Shown here: positions 10,183 to 24,581 of the stretch, one piece after another
How positions within the stretch are numbered: the first letter of the stretch is position 1
How the letters are laid out: every line of letters starts with the position of its first letter
DNA from: Deltaproteobacteria bacterium
GTDB lineage: Bacteria; Desulfobacterota; Syntrophia; Syntrophales; JAFGHS01
Direction of reading: 5' to 3'
NCBI GenBank assembly: GCA_016928025.1
Contig: JAFGLN010000066.1
Span: 1-41,705, forward strand
Length of the DNA: 41,705 nt
Program-made: the position numbers and the translations under genes
Notes under the pieces: generated by a model
Database searches by the model: none
Told to the model about the DNA's origin: nothing
What the model saw: only the letters and a program-made list of their open reading frames with translations

Positions 10183-10246
10183 TCAGGGTGGGTCTAAAAA
10201 CACTATGCTTAAAATATTAAAATAACTTGTGGAAAAGGAAAATTTT

Positions 10247-12367
10247 ATGACATTCCAGGGTCGATCAGAATGCGGCCGATTGGGGCTTTCCGATTGCGGC
10301 AGCGACGTGTTTCTGGCAGGATGGGTTGACGCTTTGCGTGACCACGGTGATTTGCTTTTTATCCATCTGCGGGACCGCAGTGGAATTATTCAGGTGGTAT
10401 TCAGCCCCGACCATGCTTCGCCAACCCTCTGCCAAACGGCCGCGGACCTTCGCAATGAATTTTGCCTTCTTCTCAGAGGTCGCGTGCAAAAGCGGGCGGA
10501 GGGCACTGAAAATCCCAACCTCGAAACCGGTCTTGTTGAAGTTATGGCCACGGCTCTGACCATCCTGGGGAAGTCCGACCCGCTCCCCTTTACCGTTTCG
10601 GAAAAAGCGATGGTTACCGGCGCGACCGTCAGTAGCGCCGATACCGTTACGGAAGAACTGCGACTTCAATACCGCTATCTCGATCTGAGGCGCCCTTCGA
10701 TGCAGGATTACCTCATAAAACGGCATCGCATCGTCAAGACCGTCCGTGATTTCCTTGATGAACGGGGTTTCATCGAAATAGAAACGCCCATGCTGACCAA
10801 GAGCACGCCGGAAGGCGCCAGGGATTATCTCGTACCCAGCCGGGTCCATCCTGGACATTTTTATGCTCTTCCCCAGTCGCCGCAGCTATTTAAACAGCTT
10901 CTCATGGTGAGCGGATACGAAAAATATTTCCAGGTGGTCCGCTGCTTCCGCGATGAAGACCTGCGCCCGAACCGCCAGCCGGAATTCACTCAACTTGATT
11001 TGGAAGCCTCTTTTATCGACGAGGAGTTTATCTATGAACTGATGGAAGCGTTGATCTGCCGAATGTTTGTCATCGGCGGTATCGATCTCTTCCGCCCCTT
11101 CCCCCGAATGACCTATGCCGAGGCTATGGACACCATGGGCTCCGACCGCCCGGATACACGCTTCGGTTTGCGTTTTATTGAAGCCACGGATATTTTCCAA
11201 AACACATCCTACGGTATTTTCAAGCAGATTCTCGATCGGGGCGGTTGCATCAAAGGAATCAATATCAAGGGCCGTTCGGAGCAACTCAGCAAAAACGTTC
11301 TCCAGAACGAATACGCCAAGGAAATTGTTCCGAGTTTCGGCGCCAAGGGAATGACCTGGATGCGCGTCATCGACGGCACTCTGGAATCCAACATCGTGCA
11401 ATTTTTCAGTCCGGAGGAGCAAAAAGCCATTCTTAACCGCTTCGGTGCGCAAAATGGGGACGTCATCATCATGATCGCCGATGCCTCGTATGAGGTTGTC
11501 ACGACCGTCCTTGGTCAACTCCGGCTCCATCTTGCCGAAAGACTCGATTTAGTCCCTCGAAGCACTTTTTCACCTTTGTGGATCACCGATTTTCCACTCT
11601 TTACAGCCACTGAAGAGGGCGTTACGTCCAGTCATCACCCCTTTACCGCTCCCGACCGGACGGATTTCGATCCAACGGATCGGGAGGCACTCCTGTACCT
11701 GCGGTCCCGGGCTTATGATATCGTTGTTAACGGCGAGGAACTGGGCGGCGGAAGTATTCGAATCAATGACCGCAACGTGCAGAATAAAATTTTTCGAGCC
11801 CTGGGACTGACTGATAATGATGTGGAGGAAAAGTTCGGTTTTTTCCTTCGTGCCCTCGATTTCGGAGCGCCTCCCCATGGCGGCATCGCTCTGGGTATGG
11901 ATCGGGTGTGCTCTATGATCCTTCAGGCTTCGTCGATCCGCGAGGTCATCGCGTTTCCCAAAAACCGCAGCGCTTACTGTCCGCTGACGGGAGCACCGTC
12001 TTTTGTGGCCATGGATCAACTTCAGGAACTCGGCCTGTTCGATGTGAAAGAAAATGACATCATCCAGGGTATGGATCAAAACCTCGATACCGTAGACGCC
12101 CTCTCTTGGGTTTCACGAATCGGTATTGAAGAGTCGGAACGTTCCCTGATAGCTGATGCCGTGGATGAAGCCGTTCGTCTGGCCGAGATTATCGGAGCAA
12201 AGGCCGGCGCGGATGATCCCCTTTTTACGAATATCAACGCTGTCAACCGCATGCGAACCAAAGGCGACCCTCTTCCCTCCAACCACGCGAAAAAAGGCGC
12301 CATTTTTAAAAACGCCCCCGCGGTAAAGGGTAACTTCTTTAAAGTTGCCGCCGTCTTAGAATTTTAG
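10247..12367 (+). CDS. aspS: Aspartyl-tRNA synthetase fused to GatC (AspRS-GatC)
   Basis: This 706-residue protein is a complete bacterial-type AspRS (about 1-600) with a complete GatC subunit attached (about 616-706). AspRS is usually about 590 residues. The AspRS part has the OB-fold anticodon domain, motif 2 (CFRDEDLRPNRQPEFTQLD) and motif 3 (GIALGMDR). H33 (RDHGD) and G86 (AEGTENPN) occupy positions where non-discriminating AspRSs keep His and Gly, suggesting it charges both tRNA-Asp and tRNA-Asn. The GatC part shows VDALSWVSRIGIEESE and ends KNAPAVKGNFFKVAAVLEF, the classic GatC C-terminus. The ATG at 10247 follows AAGGA (10235-10239); an upstream GTG at 10229 is less likely. gatA-like and gatB follow after 13 and 0 nt. 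The fusion ties the misacylating synthetase to the amidotransferase. Confidence 0.92.
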   Translation: MTFQGRSECGRLGLSDCGSDVFLAGWVDALRDHGDLLFIHLRDRSGIIQVVFSPDHASPTLCQTAADLRNEFCLLLRGRVQKRAEGTENPNLETGLVEVMATALTILGKSDPLPFTVSEKAMVTGATVSSADTVTEELRLQYRYLDLRRPSMQDYLIKRHRIVKTVRDFLDERGFIEIETPMLTKSTPEGARDYLVPSRVHPGHFYALPQSPQLFKQLLMVSGYEKYFQVVRCFRDEDLRPNRQPEFTQLDLEASFIDEEFIYELMEALICRMFVIGGIDLFRPFPRMTYAEAMDTMGSDRPDTRFGLRFIEATDIFQNTSYGIFKQILDRGGCIKGINIKGRSEQLSKNVLQNEYAKEIVPSFGAKGMTWMRVIDGTLESNIVQFFSPEEQKAILNRFGAQNGDVIIMIADASYEVVTTVLGQLRLHLAERLDLVPRSTFSPLWITDFPLFTATEEGVTSSHHPFTAPDRTDFDPTDREALLYLRSRAYDIVVNGEELGGGSIRINDRNVQNKIFRALGLTDNDVEEKFGFFLRALDFGAPPHGGIALGMDRVCSMILQASSIREVIAFPKNRSAYCPLTGAPSFVAMDQLQELGLFDVKENDIIQGMDQNLDTVDALSWVSRIGIEESERSLIADAVDEAVRLAEIIGAKAGADDPLFTNINAVNRMRTKGDPLPSNHAKKGAIFKNAPAVKGNFFKVAAVLEF

Positions 12368-12380
12368 AATAGGAATTATT

Positions 12381-13601
12381 ATGCAAACAGACCTTTTTAC
12401 GTTCTTCAATCCGTCTGAACCATGTGCCGAGCAGGGAGGCCCGCTGCAGGGAAAATCTTTTACCATCCAGCCCAATATGTCCGTATGCGATTGGCCGACG
12501 GAGGCGGGCTCTCCGGCCCTAAAAAAATTCGTCGCCATCGAAGACGCCACAGTCATTGAGCGCTTGAAAAAAGCCGGGGCCTATCTGGTCGGTTCGACCT
12601 GTATGAGCGAACTGGGTTTTGGGTTGGCCGGAGACACAACCGGTAAGGTCATTGCCGGTGGACTATCCGACATGGCTTTGATGATGGACATGATGGGAGA
12701 GGTACGGATCGCCGCTGCCCGCGAAAGGGTTTTCGGTTTTAAACCCACCAATGGCATTATCTCGCGCTTCGGCTTGATTGGACTCGTCCCGTCTATGGAA
12801 TGCTTCGGTGTCCTGGCCAAAGATCCAACGCTGATCGCTGCGGCCATGGGTGTCATGACCGGCCAGGACGAACGTGATTTTTCCATGGACGAAACGGAAC
12901 CACCCTCATTCGACTTAACTGACAGCGAAAAACTGTCTATCAGGACGATGGGCATTATCAGAGAATGCGTTGACGTTCTTGAAGACACAGTGATGTCTAA
13001 ATTCAAAACGGATCTTGAAAAGCTTAAAACCTGGGGATTTTCTATCAAAGAACTAAGCCTGCCAGATTTTGATCTCTTCCGCACGATCCATCAATGTATT
13101 GGTTCCGTTGAGGCGTCTTCGAGTTGCGGGAAATATGACGGCGTTCGATACGGCCACCGTTGTCATCAGGCAAAAAACTGGAACGATATGTACCTTAAAT
13201 CCCGGGCTGAATCTTTCGGCACCCTGATCAAATCCTATCTTTTCCAAGGCGCTTATTTCCAGTTTCAAAATTATGACGCATTTGAAAATGCCGGCCGCAT
13301 CAGGGCCCGTCTCGCTGGAGATATTCATCAACTATTCGCCGAATGCGACGTTCTGACCTTTCCCACCGGAAACGGACACACCGCCGACCCGAAGACGTCA
13401 AATCAGGTTTCGGATATCTATGATGAATTGGCACTAACCCTGCCAGCCAACGTTCTGGGCATACCAGCCGTCCAGATACCGGCTTTCTCAGCCGATGGAG
13501 AAATCGATCCGGGCCTGCAACTCATGGGCCCCCGATTCAGCGATGCTCGGCTTCTGGCGACGGCTTGCCGGCTGTCCCGATCGGTCGAAGGAGGTAGATA
13601 A
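12381..13601 (+). CDS. gatA: GatA-like subunit lacking the amidase catalytic triad
   Basis: This 406-residue protein (GatA is normally about 480) sits between aspS-gatC and gatB. Homology to GatA is clear in GFKPTNGIISRFGLIGLVPSM, KYDGVRYGHR and ANVLGIPAVQIPAF through GLQLMGPRFSDARLLA. All three amidase catalytic residues are gone. The lysine of the IKDN motif is Q30 (FTIQPN). The GGSSGGS loop with the cis-serine is replaced by GGLSDMALMMDMMGE, about 12 residues shorter. The nucleophile serine of DTGGSIRQP aligns with E107 (GEVRIAAAR). The N-terminal helices are also shortened. The frame is intact without stops, so this is a maintained pseudoenzyme rather than a decayed gene. It cannot hydrolyse glutamine by the known mechanism; a scaffold role, or use of free ammonia, is inferred. 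Confidence 0.88.
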   Translation: MQTDLFTFFNPSEPCAEQGGPLQGKSFTIQPNMSVCDWPTEAGSPALKKFVAIEDATVIERLKKAGAYLVGSTCMSELGFGLAGDTTGKVIAGGLSDMALMMDMMGEVRIAAARERVFGFKPTNGIISRFGLIGLVPSMECFGVLAKDPTLIAAAMGVMTGQDERDFSMDETEPPSFDLTDSEKLSIRTMGIIRECVDVLEDTVMSKFKTDLEKLKTWGFSIKELSLPDFDLFRTIHQCIGSVEASSSCGKYDGVRYGHRCHQAKNWNDMYLKSRAESFGTLIKSYLFQGAYFQFQNYDAFENAGRIRARLAGDIHQLFAECDVLTFPTGNGHTADPKTSNQVSDIYDELALTLPANVLGIPAVQIPAFSADGEIDPGLQLMGPRFSDARLLATACRLSRSVEGGR

Positions 13602-15032
13602 ATGGAATACGAAGCGGTTATCGGTCTTGAAATCCACGTCGAACTGAACTGTGCGACCAAGATGTTCTGTGACTGTCCCAACAGCGCCGGCGCCGATCCC
13701 AACACCAACACCTGTCCGATTTGTTTATGGTTTCCGGGGGCTATCCCCAGGTTCAGTGAGGAAGCTCTCGAAAAAGCCGCCTTAACGGCTATGGGGTTAA
13801 ATTGCATCATTCAGGAGCGAAGCGCCTTCGACCAAAAGGTTTACTATTATCCCGATCTTCCCAAGGGATATCAGCTCTCTCAAGCGCACCTGCCCCTGGC
13901 CAGAAACGGCTGGCTCGATATTACGGCGGAAAACGGCGAAACGAAACGTTTACGGATCCATAAAATTCACATGGAGGAAGATGTGGCCAAGCTGGTACAT
14001 GAAATTGAAGGGCGAACACCCATCAGTCTGGTGGATTTTAATCGTGCCGGTGTTCCTCTGGTGGAAATCGTTACGGAACCGGACATGCGAAGTCCCCATG
14101 ATGCCATGGAGTTCATCCGTGTTTTGCGGACCCAGATCCGTTATATCGGCACGGCGGAATGCAGCATGGAGGCAGGCACCATGCGTGTCGACGCCAACAT
14201 TTCACTCCGGCCGAAGGGGTCGGAACTGCTCAATACGAAGGTTGAAGTTAAAAACATGAACTCCATCCGACACCTGGGTGATGCCATCGCGTACGAAATT
14301 AATCGCCAGACGGCCAGCCTTCATGCGGGGGACCCCATCGTTCTGCATACCCGCCTCTGGGATCCCGAAAAATCCATCACCGTGGCCATGCGGGGCAAGT
14401 TCGAGGGCCCGTGCATCCCTGACCCCTCCGTCCCGCATATTGTTGTAACCGAGGACTGGAAAAAGAAAATACAGGCCAGGTTACCGGAAATGCCCGGCGC
14501 CAAAGCTGAACGTTTTTGCCGCCAATACGGCCTGAATCGAGAAGAATCACTTATGGTCAGCGGCGAGCGGGAGTTGTCGGAATATTTTGAAGCCGTTGTG
14601 AAGCAAAAAGTTTCCCCGCGGACGGCGGTCCATTGGATTTTTTCTCAGTTGGCCCCCGCGCTCAAGGAGCATGAACAAAGATTCAATGATACGGCAGTTA
14701 ATCCTGAACGCTTTGCCGGCTTGCTGATTTTGTTGGAAAATAATGAGATCAATGCAAAGGTGGTCAGAAAGGTCATTGATCTGCTCTTCGAGAGCGATCA
14801 AACACCTGCTGATATCATTGATCAGCAGGGTTTCCGTCAGGTTTCCGATGTGGACCAAATCGAAGCAATGATCCGGGACATCCTTGCAGCCAATCCCTCC
14901 GCTGTGAATGATTATAAAAGTGGCGTCGAGAAAGCCCTGGGCTTTTTGATGGGACGTGCCATGCAGGCCCTAAAAGGCAAGGGTAATCCCCAGATCATTC
15001 GTGAGATCCTGATCCGGAAGCTGGACGCCTAA
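13602..15032 (+). CDS. gatB: Asp-tRNA(Asn)/Glu-tRNA(Gln) amidotransferase subunit B
   Basis: This 476-residue, full-length GatB is the kinase/amidotransferase subunit. It activates the side-chain carboxylate of misacylated Asp-tRNA(Asn) or Glu-tRNA(Gln) with ATP and transfers ammonia to it. Active-site segments are present: IGLEIHVEL, IHKIHMEEDVAK (canonical HxEEDAGK) and VPLVEIVTEPDMRS. The cysteine cluster (FCDC and TCPIC) fits the GatB zinc site. The C-terminal YqeY-like tRNA-binding domain is complete to the end. It differs from the usual sequence at CPICLWFPG (usually CPVCLGHPG) and TMRVDANIS (usually MRCDANIS). The ATG starts immediately after the gatA-like stop, so translation is probably coupled. 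Confidence 0.94.
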   Translation: MEYEAVIGLEIHVELNCATKMFCDCPNSAGADPNTNTCPICLWFPGAIPRFSEEALEKAALTAMGLNCIIQERSAFDQKVYYYPDLPKGYQLSQAHLPLARNGWLDITAENGETKRLRIHKIHMEEDVAKLVHEIEGRTPISLVDFNRAGVPLVEIVTEPDMRSPHDAMEFIRVLRTQIRYIGTAECSMEAGTMRVDANISLRPKGSELLNTKVEVKNMNSIRHLGDAIAYEINRQTASLHAGDPIVLHTRLWDPEKSITVAMRGKFEGPCIPDPSVPHIVVTEDWKKKIQARLPEMPGAKAERFCRQYGLNREESLMVSGERELSEYFEAVVKQKVSPRTAVHWIFSQLAPALKEHEQRFNDTAVNPERFAGLLILLENNEINAKVVRKVIDLLFESDQTPADIIDQQGFRQVSDVDQIEAMIRDILAANPSAVNDYKSGVEKALGFLMGRAMQALKGKGNPQIIREILIRKLDA

Positions 15033-22697: not shown

Positions 22698-24581
22698 ATG
22701 CCCGCTCATAACCCTCAAAATCCACGCCAACCCGTTATCATTGTTTTTTCAACAATCTTTTTTTTCATTCTCATTATGATGATCGGTATTCCCGCCTGGG
22801 CGGAAGAAACATCCGAAGACGCCTTGTGGAACGGCGAGCTGTGGGGTTCCGTCCAATCCATACCCGACCAGGTTGCCCCCGAGGGGGAAATAACCATAAC
22901 CGCCACAATTCATGACGGATCTCCAACACCCCGGTGGGAATGCTGGATCGATGAGCTCACATCCGAGGAACGATGTATGGCCTGTGGAACCTATGCCGTC
23001 ACCATCTCCGGCTGGGACGATTCATTGACGGATGATTTGCGCCTGTACGATATTATCGATTATGGCCCCGATGCCGGTTCCGAGATTCAAATCACCCTTG
23101 TCGGGGACGGTGAAGACAGCACGACCGCACCCTCTATCAAATGGACAGCTGTTACCGCCGACTGGCCTGAACCAGGGACCGAAAATCCACCGCCGCCCAA
23201 TACCTTCAGGAGCGGCGATACGTTCTGGATCAAACTGCAGGCCCGGCCTTCCTGGCCCGGATGGTACAATGCCTCCGGTGTAAGCCGGAAGATAACCGCT
23301 TCCTTCGAAGGCACCAGCCCGCACGTATGGTCTGATGATGCTTTCATTTATGGTGCCGCCCCACTGGCCAAGGTCAAGATCGATTTCAATCCCGAATCGT
23401 TTGATATTTTTGCCACCGCCGGAGACACCCAGGACCTGACTTTCTTCACCTATGATGAGAACTCCGGCAAACCCCTGAAGCACTATCCTGTTTTACTGAG
23501 CGCAACGAAAGGCGCTATCGAGCCCCTTGGTACGGGAAACGAAACCATGACCTATCAGGACAGCCAACAGGAAGGACTGGTCGTCTACACCGACAACCTG
23601 GGCTACGGATACATCAGGTATCAGGCCGAAGACGCTCTCGTCACGGCCACCATCTCCGCCGAAGCCTGGTATTGGGGGCATATCGATTCCCCCCCGATGT
23701 ACGGCCGGGTAGAAGCCCATTATCAACCCCTGCTGAACGTCGCCATGGAGCCCCTCGATTCCACCATCCCCCTGGGCACTTTCTTCCCCGTTCAAATACA
23801 GATCGAGAATGTTTCCTCTTGGGATCTTACCGACGTCACACTGAACGGATTCGGTCTCTACGGTACCGGCGACGCCGAACTGATCAGTGGAACCGCACCA
23901 ATCAGTATCGGAAACCTGGCCGCCGGCCAGACAACGGCATCCTATGAATATATCTATCAGGCCACCGACGAAGGCAATTTTTCCCTCTATGGATACGTCG
24001 GCGCTACCAACGACTCTTATGATGAAACTTACAGTTACTCAAAGGGGTCTCTTTCCACGATCACTCCCGGCCTTGACGTCACCGTCGATCTGCCGATGGA
24101 ATCCCCGCTCCAGGACCAGACGTTTACCCTGACCGTTCAGGTAATCAACAACAGTTCGCAGAACCTGGAGACTGTTTATCCGATGGTGACCGCCGTTTAC
24201 ACAAGCTTCCCCGGCGGACCCTCGTTAATCAGCGGGCCCGATCCCTCCTCTGTTTCGATTTTGAATCCCGGCGCTGAGACTGTCTTTACCTATCAATACA
24301 AAGCCTCCCGCACCGGCGAAATTTTTTTCCGAATCTACGCCGAGGGTAAAACGGCATCCGGCAACCGTATCGTTTCCGAAACGGTCCGCACCGACAACAT
24401 GACGGTCACAGAAAATACTCTGATCAGTATGGAATCCGTGATTGCCATCTTAAAGATTGTCGCCGGCATAACGCCTTCGGGTGATTTTGACGATCTGGAT
24501 GTGGTCAAGGACGGTGTTGTCGGCATGCCGGATGCCATCCGATCGTTGCAGTGTGTCGGTGAATTGGCTACCTGCCGCTAG
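22698..24581 (+). CDS. Secreted Ig-like/CARDB-like repeat protein with dockerin-like C-terminus
   Basis: This is a 627-residue protein of unknown function. An N-terminal signal peptide (hydrophobic about 13-34, ending PAWA-EE) indicates export. The body is beta-rich. Two related segments near 345-450 and 455-560 (LLNVAMEPLDSTIPLGTFFPVQIQIENVS and, later, LDVTVDLPMESPLQDQTFTLTVQVINN) look like CARDB or Ig-like adhesion repeats. The C-terminus (ILKIVAGITPSGDFDDLD then KDGVVGMPDAIRSLQ) resembles an EF-hand dockerin-type motif, which could bind calcium and a cohesin-like partner. A strong AGAAGGAGG site precedes the ATG. A cell-surface or extracellular role is inferred. Confidence 0.8.
   Translation: MPAHNPQNPRQPVIIVFSTIFFFILIMMIGIPAWAEETSEDALWNGELWGSVQSIPDQVAPEGEITITATIHDGSPTPRWECWIDELTSEERCMACGTYAVTISGWDDSLTDDLRLYDIIDYGPDAGSEIQITLVGDGEDSTTAPSIKWTAVTADWPEPGTENPPPPNTFRSGDTFWIKLQARPSWPGWYNASGVSRKITASFEGTSPHVWSDDAFIYGAAPLAKVKIDFNPESFDIFATAGDTQDLTFFTYDENSGKPLKHYPVLLSATKGAIEPLGTGNETMTYQDSQQEGLVVYTDNLGYGYIRYQAEDALVTATISAEAWYWGHIDSPPMYGRVEAHYQPLLNVAMEPLDSTIPLGTFFPVQIQIENVSSWDLTDVTLNGFGLYGTGDAELISGTAPISIGNLAAGQTTASYEYIYQATDEGNFSLYGYVGATNDSYDETYSYSKGSLSTITPGLDVTVDLPMESPLQDQTFTLTVQVINNSSQNLETVYPMVTAVYTSFPGGPSLISGPDPSSVSILNPGAETVFTYQYKASRTGEIFFRIYAEGKTASGNRIVSETVRTDNMTVTENTLISMESVIAILKIVAGITPSGDFDDLDVVKDGVVGMPDAIRSLQCVGELATCR

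Follow-up and report, generated by a model that had tools for sequence, protein, structure and literature searches.

The amidotransferase GatCAB is regarded as an enzyme driven by glutamine, in which glutaminase and transfer step are described as coupled. GatCAB, AspRS and tRNA-Asn together make up the asparagine transamidosome (structures 3kfu and 4wj3). As described in PMC4027206, the GatFAB enzyme can use NH4Cl as the donor for transamidation in vitro, and this activity was higher with one GatF truncation. On the tRNA side, the U1-A72 pair of tRNA-Asn is described as an amidation determinant (PMC9976931).

Here, we describe an operon in a 41,705-nucleotide stretch of DNA from a Deltaproteobacteria bacterium (the whole stretch analysed, which we call the window). 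The operon is a second AspRS-GatC/GatA/GatB set in its genome, that is, an AspRS fused to GatC (AspRS2-GatC), a GatA without its glutaminase site (GatA*) and a GatB (GatB2). Tentatively, with a probability of about 0.42, we read it as a predicted tethered asparagine transamidosome that would amidate Asp-tRNA(Asn) with free ammonia. We refer to the three genes, here and in other genomes, as the module or dead cassette (Table 1).

Table 1. Features of the operon in the window
Feature	Position	Strand	Description or basis
AspRS2-GatC fusion	10247..12367	+	full-length bacterial AspRS including its GAD domain, followed by a GatC domain (~90 residues)
GatC-like domain of the fusion, about residues 612-712	12062..12364	+	PF02686 and profile-profile match
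GatA*, pseudo-glutaminase GatA, 406 aa	12381..13601	+	replaced or deleted catalytic and glutamine-contact positions
GatB2, 476 aa	13602..15032	+	NF004012 and residue comparison

The open reading frame of the fusion begins at GTG 10229, and several homologues in the alignment begin at the Met of ATG 10247, which is probably the true start. The initial annotation had set GatA* between an AspRS-GatC fusion (10229-12367) and a GatB with its catalytic residues (13602-15032). Both neighbours are borne out, the former by NF009460, TIGR00459 and hhalign and the latter by its retained ATP/Mg residues; the coordinates, frame and strand first given for GatA* were checked and are right. Elsewhere in the window, a 627-aa open frame (22698-24581) has no Pfam match at E <= 1e-5. 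An Rfam scan of the window returned no regulatory RNA match, and a promoter scan returned one match, on the opposite strand, against 5.7 expected, which is uninformative. A dedicated tRNA for the module was considered and rejected, since neither the window nor any of the 35 scanned module loci contains a tRNA gene.

The glutaminase site of GatA*

The canonical GatA of the same genome served as alignment reference, with the triad K82, S157 (the cis-Ser) and S181. Against it, GatA* has Gln30 in place of the lysine, Glu107 in place of the nucleophile and a gap where the cis-Ser loop would be, and the triad loss read earlier from the window alone is confirmed. The accompanying loop loss is larger than the roughly 12 residues first proposed: the stretch from a conserved Glu (E129 in the canonical protein, E77 in GatA*) to the nucleophile position is shorter by 22 residues. 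About 50 N-terminal residues are also absent from GatA*, and canonical K82 corresponds to its residue 30. The frame is intact, as had been claimed, and so is the remaining fold: the protein models as a complete GatA, with GatA of 3kfu as best match, tied within 1 Z with other GatAs (structural families here are those of the rechecked Foldseek matches, and others may lie outside that list).

The loss is a property of the family. We compared 150 distinct GatA* homologues (the best 120 of 935 matches plus those read from loci) with 104 canonical GatAs chosen by similarity alone. The lysine position holds Gln in 147 of the 150 and Lys in none, the cis-Ser is deleted in all of them, and the nucleophile position holds Glu in 147 and Ser in none. 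The canonical proteins keep the lysine and the cis-Ser in 104 of 104 and the nucleophilic serine in 103, with one gap. An earlier set of 37 canonical GatAs is no control because it had been chosen partly by the triad motifs in question, and the count was redone on the 104. The initial annotation had named an intact triad in related genomes, and with it a sequencing or strain defect here, as the finding that would count against it. The triad is kept in 0 of 150 homologues, and such a defect is excluded because the loss is common to all of them.

Catalytic and contact columns were mapped with what we take to be the S. aureus GatA numbering (K79/S154/S178/Y309/R358/D425), and the Tyr column is presumably a glutamine contact, after the same protein. 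At these contact columns, whose mapping rests partly on that numbering, the window's GatA* has His237, Tyr286 and Leu350 for Tyr, Arg and Asp. In yeast, R334 and D418 are named as glutamine contacts in PMC4027206. Throughout the 150 homologues the Tyr has become His, the Arg is replaced (by Tyr in 138, Phe in 11 and Leu in one) and the Asp is replaced (by Phe in 108, Cys in 33 and others in nine), against Tyr in 104, Arg in 104 and Asp in 103 of the 104 canonical proteins. Five of the six changed positions show one conserved new state, or a deletion, in 92-100% of family members, and at the remaining position, that of the Asp, 94% of the proteins have Phe or Cys. Lacking the triad and the glutamine contacts, GatA* is not expected to work as the known glutaminase.

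The dN/dS of GatA* is 0.195-0.229 in five of seven pairs (the remaining two are saturated), and that of its partner genes is 0.05-0.25. In four of the five estimable pairs GatA* lies above the comparable partner genes, two of these with one partner only. Taken with the conserved loss, a dN/dS of ~0.2 makes GatA* look like a maintained pseudoenzyme under purifying selection.

The partner proteins and a live sister cassette

The fusion aligns with NF009460 (AspRS/GatC bifunctional) over 3-711 at 1244.5 bits, below the cut-off of 1379, and with TIGR00459 at 693 bits. The same NF009460 model gives 1096-1319 bits on four other dead-cassette fusions, also below cut-off. The GatC tail is very divergent, reaching 17.4 bits against PF02686 (cut-off 23), and is matched to the canonical GatC profile by hhalign (probability 97.1%, E 4.8e-11, ~90 columns). 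Class II motifs 2 and 3 and the Asp-pocket segments are present in AspRS2, which differs consistently at 74 positions from AspRS1, the ordinary AspRS. Particular to the fusions in the anticodon domain are D34 and H46 (21 of 21) and A35, S51 and T93 (18-20 of 21; 19 of the fusions are distinct).

His39 of AspRS is taken here as a mark of tRNA(Asn) use, after P. aeruginosa AspRS His31/Gly82. It is found in all 21 fusions (19 distinct) and in 33 of 36 AspRS1 proteins, a set that includes the divergent AspRS of genome G001; AspRS1 of the window's own genome has His39, like AspRS2. Leu39 occurs in AspRS1 of G002 and G048, which have AsnRS, and of G050, a module genome with no AsnRS match. It recurs in five further module genomes: G261 and G305, with AsnRS-like frames, and G179, G350 and G253, where AsnRS was judged solely from cross-matches of the AspRS model. 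A switch of AspRS1 to Leu39 due to the module was tried and rejected: Fisher's test on 4/20 vs 0/23 gives p 0.039, a confounded comparison of the phylum with one order. Within the order, Leu39 is found in one of 13 genomes with the module and without AsnRS vs none of 23 others, which is anecdotal and shows no trend. The searches of G006, a genome listed as 100% complete, found the fusion as sole AspRS (on a 7.7-kb contig) and no AsnRS; with Leu39 in AspRS1 and no AsnRS match in G050, this suggests that AspRS2 is the likely charger of tRNA(Asn) in these two genomes.

Other arrangements of AspRS occur among the relatives. Unfused AspRS2 persists without GatA* and GatB2 in G037, G046 and G057. 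Four unfused AspRS2 genes (612-616 aa; L170:7923-9761, L171:6415-8265, L172:5789-7639 and L173:4070-5908) fall within the dead-cassette clade. No GatA* or GatB2 lies alongside them, and each is near a gene with a match to the amidotransferase portion of the AsnB model, presumably purF (the name is our guess). A single AspRS (L169:5716-7569) was found in G001, of the same genus as the window's genome. It shares 40% identity with the fused AspRS and 46% with AspRS1 of the latter genome, and its branch is very long. In G007, AspRS1 is in two pieces with an in-frame TAG (L179:2368-4269), and the fused AspRS2 is intact.

GatB2 matches NF004012 at 570.9 bits (cut-off 338). In a comparison of 35 module GatBs with 44 canonical ones, 92 positions conserved in the canonical set are kept by the module proteins. 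GatB2 retains E10, H12, E125, E126, D127, E155, N199 and S201, matched by motif, with the yeast protein unaligned, to yeast E34, H36, E156, E186, N230 and S232 (PMC4027206), as well as the zinc-cysteine residues C23, C25, C38 and C41. On the other hand, its commonest residue differs at 48 positions (one of them a gap column) with canonical conservation of at least 95%. Several fixed changes fall in the stretch 77-82; A77D, R78Q, N80V, A128V, G129A and E249H are fixed near retained active-site residues in sequence, and three residues of the DYRYFPDPD motif are lost. The chemistry of GatB2 may therefore have changed. In a GatB tree, the dead-cassette proteins group in a single clade (SH-aLRT 100).

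Two genomes, G261 and G305, carry a second cassette in the same order, AspRS-GatC fusion, GatA and GatB (loci L323 and L324), which we call live. Its fusion has 723 aa in G261 (that of G305 is cut by the contig end), its GatA 477/478 aa and its GatB 483/484 aa. Both GatAs keep all three triad residues as well as the Tyr, Arg and Asp contacts, the GatB of G261 keeps DYRYFPDPD, and Pfam lists a GatC domain in the fusion (P0121), which scores 992 bits against NF009460. The best 120 matches to the live fusion, query included, are all of this fusion type, 66-100% identical, with GatC listed by Pfam for every one. In an AspRS tree (a quick search with SH-aLRT support only), the live fusions (99) and the dead-cassette fusions (97) are sister clades under a joint node of 100, apart from AspRS1, with the four unfused AspRS2 proteins within the dead clade. 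In the GatB tree, subject to a long-branch warning, live GatB adjoins the dead clade. A live sister cassette and sister AspRS clades point to a working fused transamidosome as the probable ancestor of the dead cassette, and we infer as the simplest history one AspRS-GatC fusion event, then loss of the glutaminase in one branch.

Distribution and the canonical pathway

Among 60 relatives, dead GatA is found at E < 1e-110 in 13 (the window's genome included), and a 14th, G031, has a partial copy across an assembly gap. All 14 have the fused AspRS, as a contig-end fragment in G049 and on another contig in G033. Across the phylum, dead GatA is found in 17 of 395 genomes at E <= 1e-70 (all at E <= 3.1e-144); by their labels these belong to twelve families. 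Relatives and phylum together give 28 distinct module genomes, all with at least two GatB matches (the canonical copy of G019 is a contig-end fragment). All 29 loci in which every gene is present to at least 85% (27 of them distinct) keep the order fusion, GatA*, GatB2, with intergenic gaps of 7 to 237 and -11 to 72 bases. No other gene cluster recurs in more than three of 39 loci (two contigs are counted twice, L046/L159 and L048/L163, and several loci are short), except an antisense frame over GatB in five. In G001 no dead GatA was found. In G150 and G179, of one genus, an intact amidase-family gene lies 163 bases after GatB2 on the same strand (L241:8782-10212 and L242:8999-10429). It was not seen at the other modules read, and a dedicated amidase partner is rejected, the gene being confined to these two.

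A second, canonical gatA, which the initial annotation had proposed to look for, is present in the window's genome (3.68 Mb, 126 contigs, 89% complete). It stands in a gatC-gatA-gatB operon with full triad on G000:C48 (locus L011), and the ordinary AspRS1 is encoded on contig C126. Normal Asn-tRNA(Asn) synthesis can therefore run through these genes. The suggestion that the dead-GatA operon is the cell's own tRNA-Asn pathway is thus not supported, and a role as sole route to Asn is rejected. That a canonical GatCAB elsewhere does all the work, with this operon silent, had been named as the case against a distinct pathway; the part of it that stands is the presence of the canonical genes. An AsnRS search found none in the window's genome and a match in five of 60 relatives. 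In the window's genome, AsnB gives no more than a weak partial match. Replacement of asparagine synthetase by the module is rejected, as AsnB exceeds the cut-off in 8 of 14 module relatives vs 19 of 46 others, with no association. The two tRNA-Asn(GUU) genes found in the window's genome (G000:C59:38994-39066 and G000:C70:9517-9589) differ from each other, with 69 of 76 bases alike, and both have U1-A72. Extra tRNA-Asn shows no visible association with the module among the matches listed, where a 2-mismatch pattern also caught other tRNAs.

Possible functions and comparison with known systems

In the proposed mechanism, AspRS2 would put Asp on tRNA(Asn), the tethered GatC would bring GatA* and GatB2 to the charged tRNA, and GatB2 would phosphorylate the Asp side chain. 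Ammonia would enter by the old glutaminase side, where the conserved Glu107, His237 and Gln30 may take in ammonium, and GatA* would stay as scaffold and tunnel mouth. The whole would be a glutamine-sparing accessory route beside canonical GatCAB. Free ammonia is suggested as donor by the missing triad and glutamine contacts, the kept ATP/Mg residues of GatB2 and the use of NH4Cl by GatFAB. Our confidence stays below even because GatB2 has changed and a canonical GatCAB, which could do the whole job, is present. Also counted against this reading are the divergent GatC tail, the unfused AspRS2 without GatA*/GatB2, the want of any tracking with AsnB absence, extra tRNA-Asn or Leu39, and the lack of a dead GatA in G001. 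A bolder and rather unlikely version makes the dead GatA a rebuilt ammonium port (Glu107, His237, Gln30) feeding GatB2, in an ammonia-driven tethered transamidosome that would be the tRNA-bound counterpart of AsnA. If so, Asn-tRNA synthesis could continue under glutamine shortage, or with the canonical GatCAB blocked by glutamine analogues or GatA-binding toxins.

The same conserved residues can be read differently. That the old GatA site has new conserved residues and not drift (Gln30 and Glu107 in 147, His237 in 150 and Tyr286 in 138 of 150), together with the fixed class-specific changes in GatB2 and the class-specific D34, H46, A35, S51 and T93 of AspRS2, would also suit a neofunctionalised aminoacyl-tRNA modifier. 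Here Asp would be activated on the tRNA and the GatA* pocket would deliver another amine or small nucleophile, so that the product would not, or not only, be Asn-tRNA. We consider this unlikely: no conserved neighbour points to another substrate or a biosynthetic cluster, none of the scanned loci offers a tRNA gene, and the sister cassette is by sequence an ordinary glutamine-type transamidosome. Conservation of the old active-site positions, which are not free to vary, also speaks against a purely structural GatA*, as do the ATP and Mg residues of GatB2, which a pure scaffold would not need. Such a hand-over complex, likewise unlikely in our view, would charge tRNA(Asn) with Asp, shield it from EF-Tu and pass it to canonical GatCAB. 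It would be tethered by the AspRS-GatC fusion, and it is consistent with the second GatB in 28 of 28 module genomes and with the higher dN/dS of GatA* in four of five pairs.

Decay is another matter. The patchy distribution (17 of 395 phylum genomes), an interrupted GatB2 in G305 and one stop counted in each GatA* of G049 and G392, where the protein is nonetheless spanned by open frames of 399 and 403 aa, are what a degenerating transamidosome duplicate, kept by chance and gene transfer, might leave. However, dN/dS is ~0.2 for GatA* and 0.05-0.25 for its partners, 27 distinct loci carry 85% or more of every cassette gene, and at five of six positions the same replacement is shared by 138-150 of the 150 proteins. 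In G031, what looks like a truncated gene is an assembly gap of 100 N, and decay of the module there is rejected. Degeneration is thus very improbable.

What appears new is the conserved glutaminase-dead GatA; the AspRS/GatC fusion is already known, being named by NCBI (NF009460). The open-access literature, which was the scope of our search with subscription papers mostly outside it, yielded no study of either. A conserved, separately evolving GatCAB without glutaminase would show that the coupling to the transfer step can be abandoned. The dead cassette would be a natural system for the ammonia tunnel and free-ammonia use. Asparagine made on tRNA from free ammonia would amount to a glutamine-free version of an essential pathway.

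Compared with the canonical GatCAB on G000:C48, the window operon shares the GatB fold and catalytic residues, the GatA fold, a GatC domain and operon neighbours. It differs in a GatA* without triad, glutamine contacts, ~50 N-terminal residues and cis-Ser loop, in a GatC fused to AspRS and in a GatB2 of its own clade. In other words, it has the GatB ATP/Mg residues and the GatC of a glutamine-dependent GatCAB, and lacks the amidase triad and glutamine contacts. The protein components of the asparagine transamidosome are all encoded together in the window, where the fusion and fixed order point to AspRS and GatCAB acting together, and the genome's tRNA(Asn) has U1-A72. Unlike that complex, the window's AspRS and GatC form one chain and its GatA is glutaminase-dead; a complex in the window is predicted from genes and single-chain models. 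NF009460 (PRK12820) aligns with the fusion over its full length, with the window protein below cut-off, and is silent on GatA. AsnA, the ammonia-dependent asparagine synthetase named in PMC4206432, uses free ammonia to turn aspartate into asparagine, but as the free amino acid and not on tRNA; it is likened here by function alone, with no relation to GatB assumed. Clostridium acetobutylicum has extra AspRSs and an additional GatCAB, and the account of PMC4206432 that we draw on mentions neither fusion nor dead GatA. The live cassette of G261 and G305 has the same order and an AspRS-GatC fusion of the sister clade, and differs from the window in its intact GatA. The system also provides a covalent AspRS-GatC chain, and the live/dead pair within G261 offers a comparison for the origin of a pseudoenzyme inside an essential complex.
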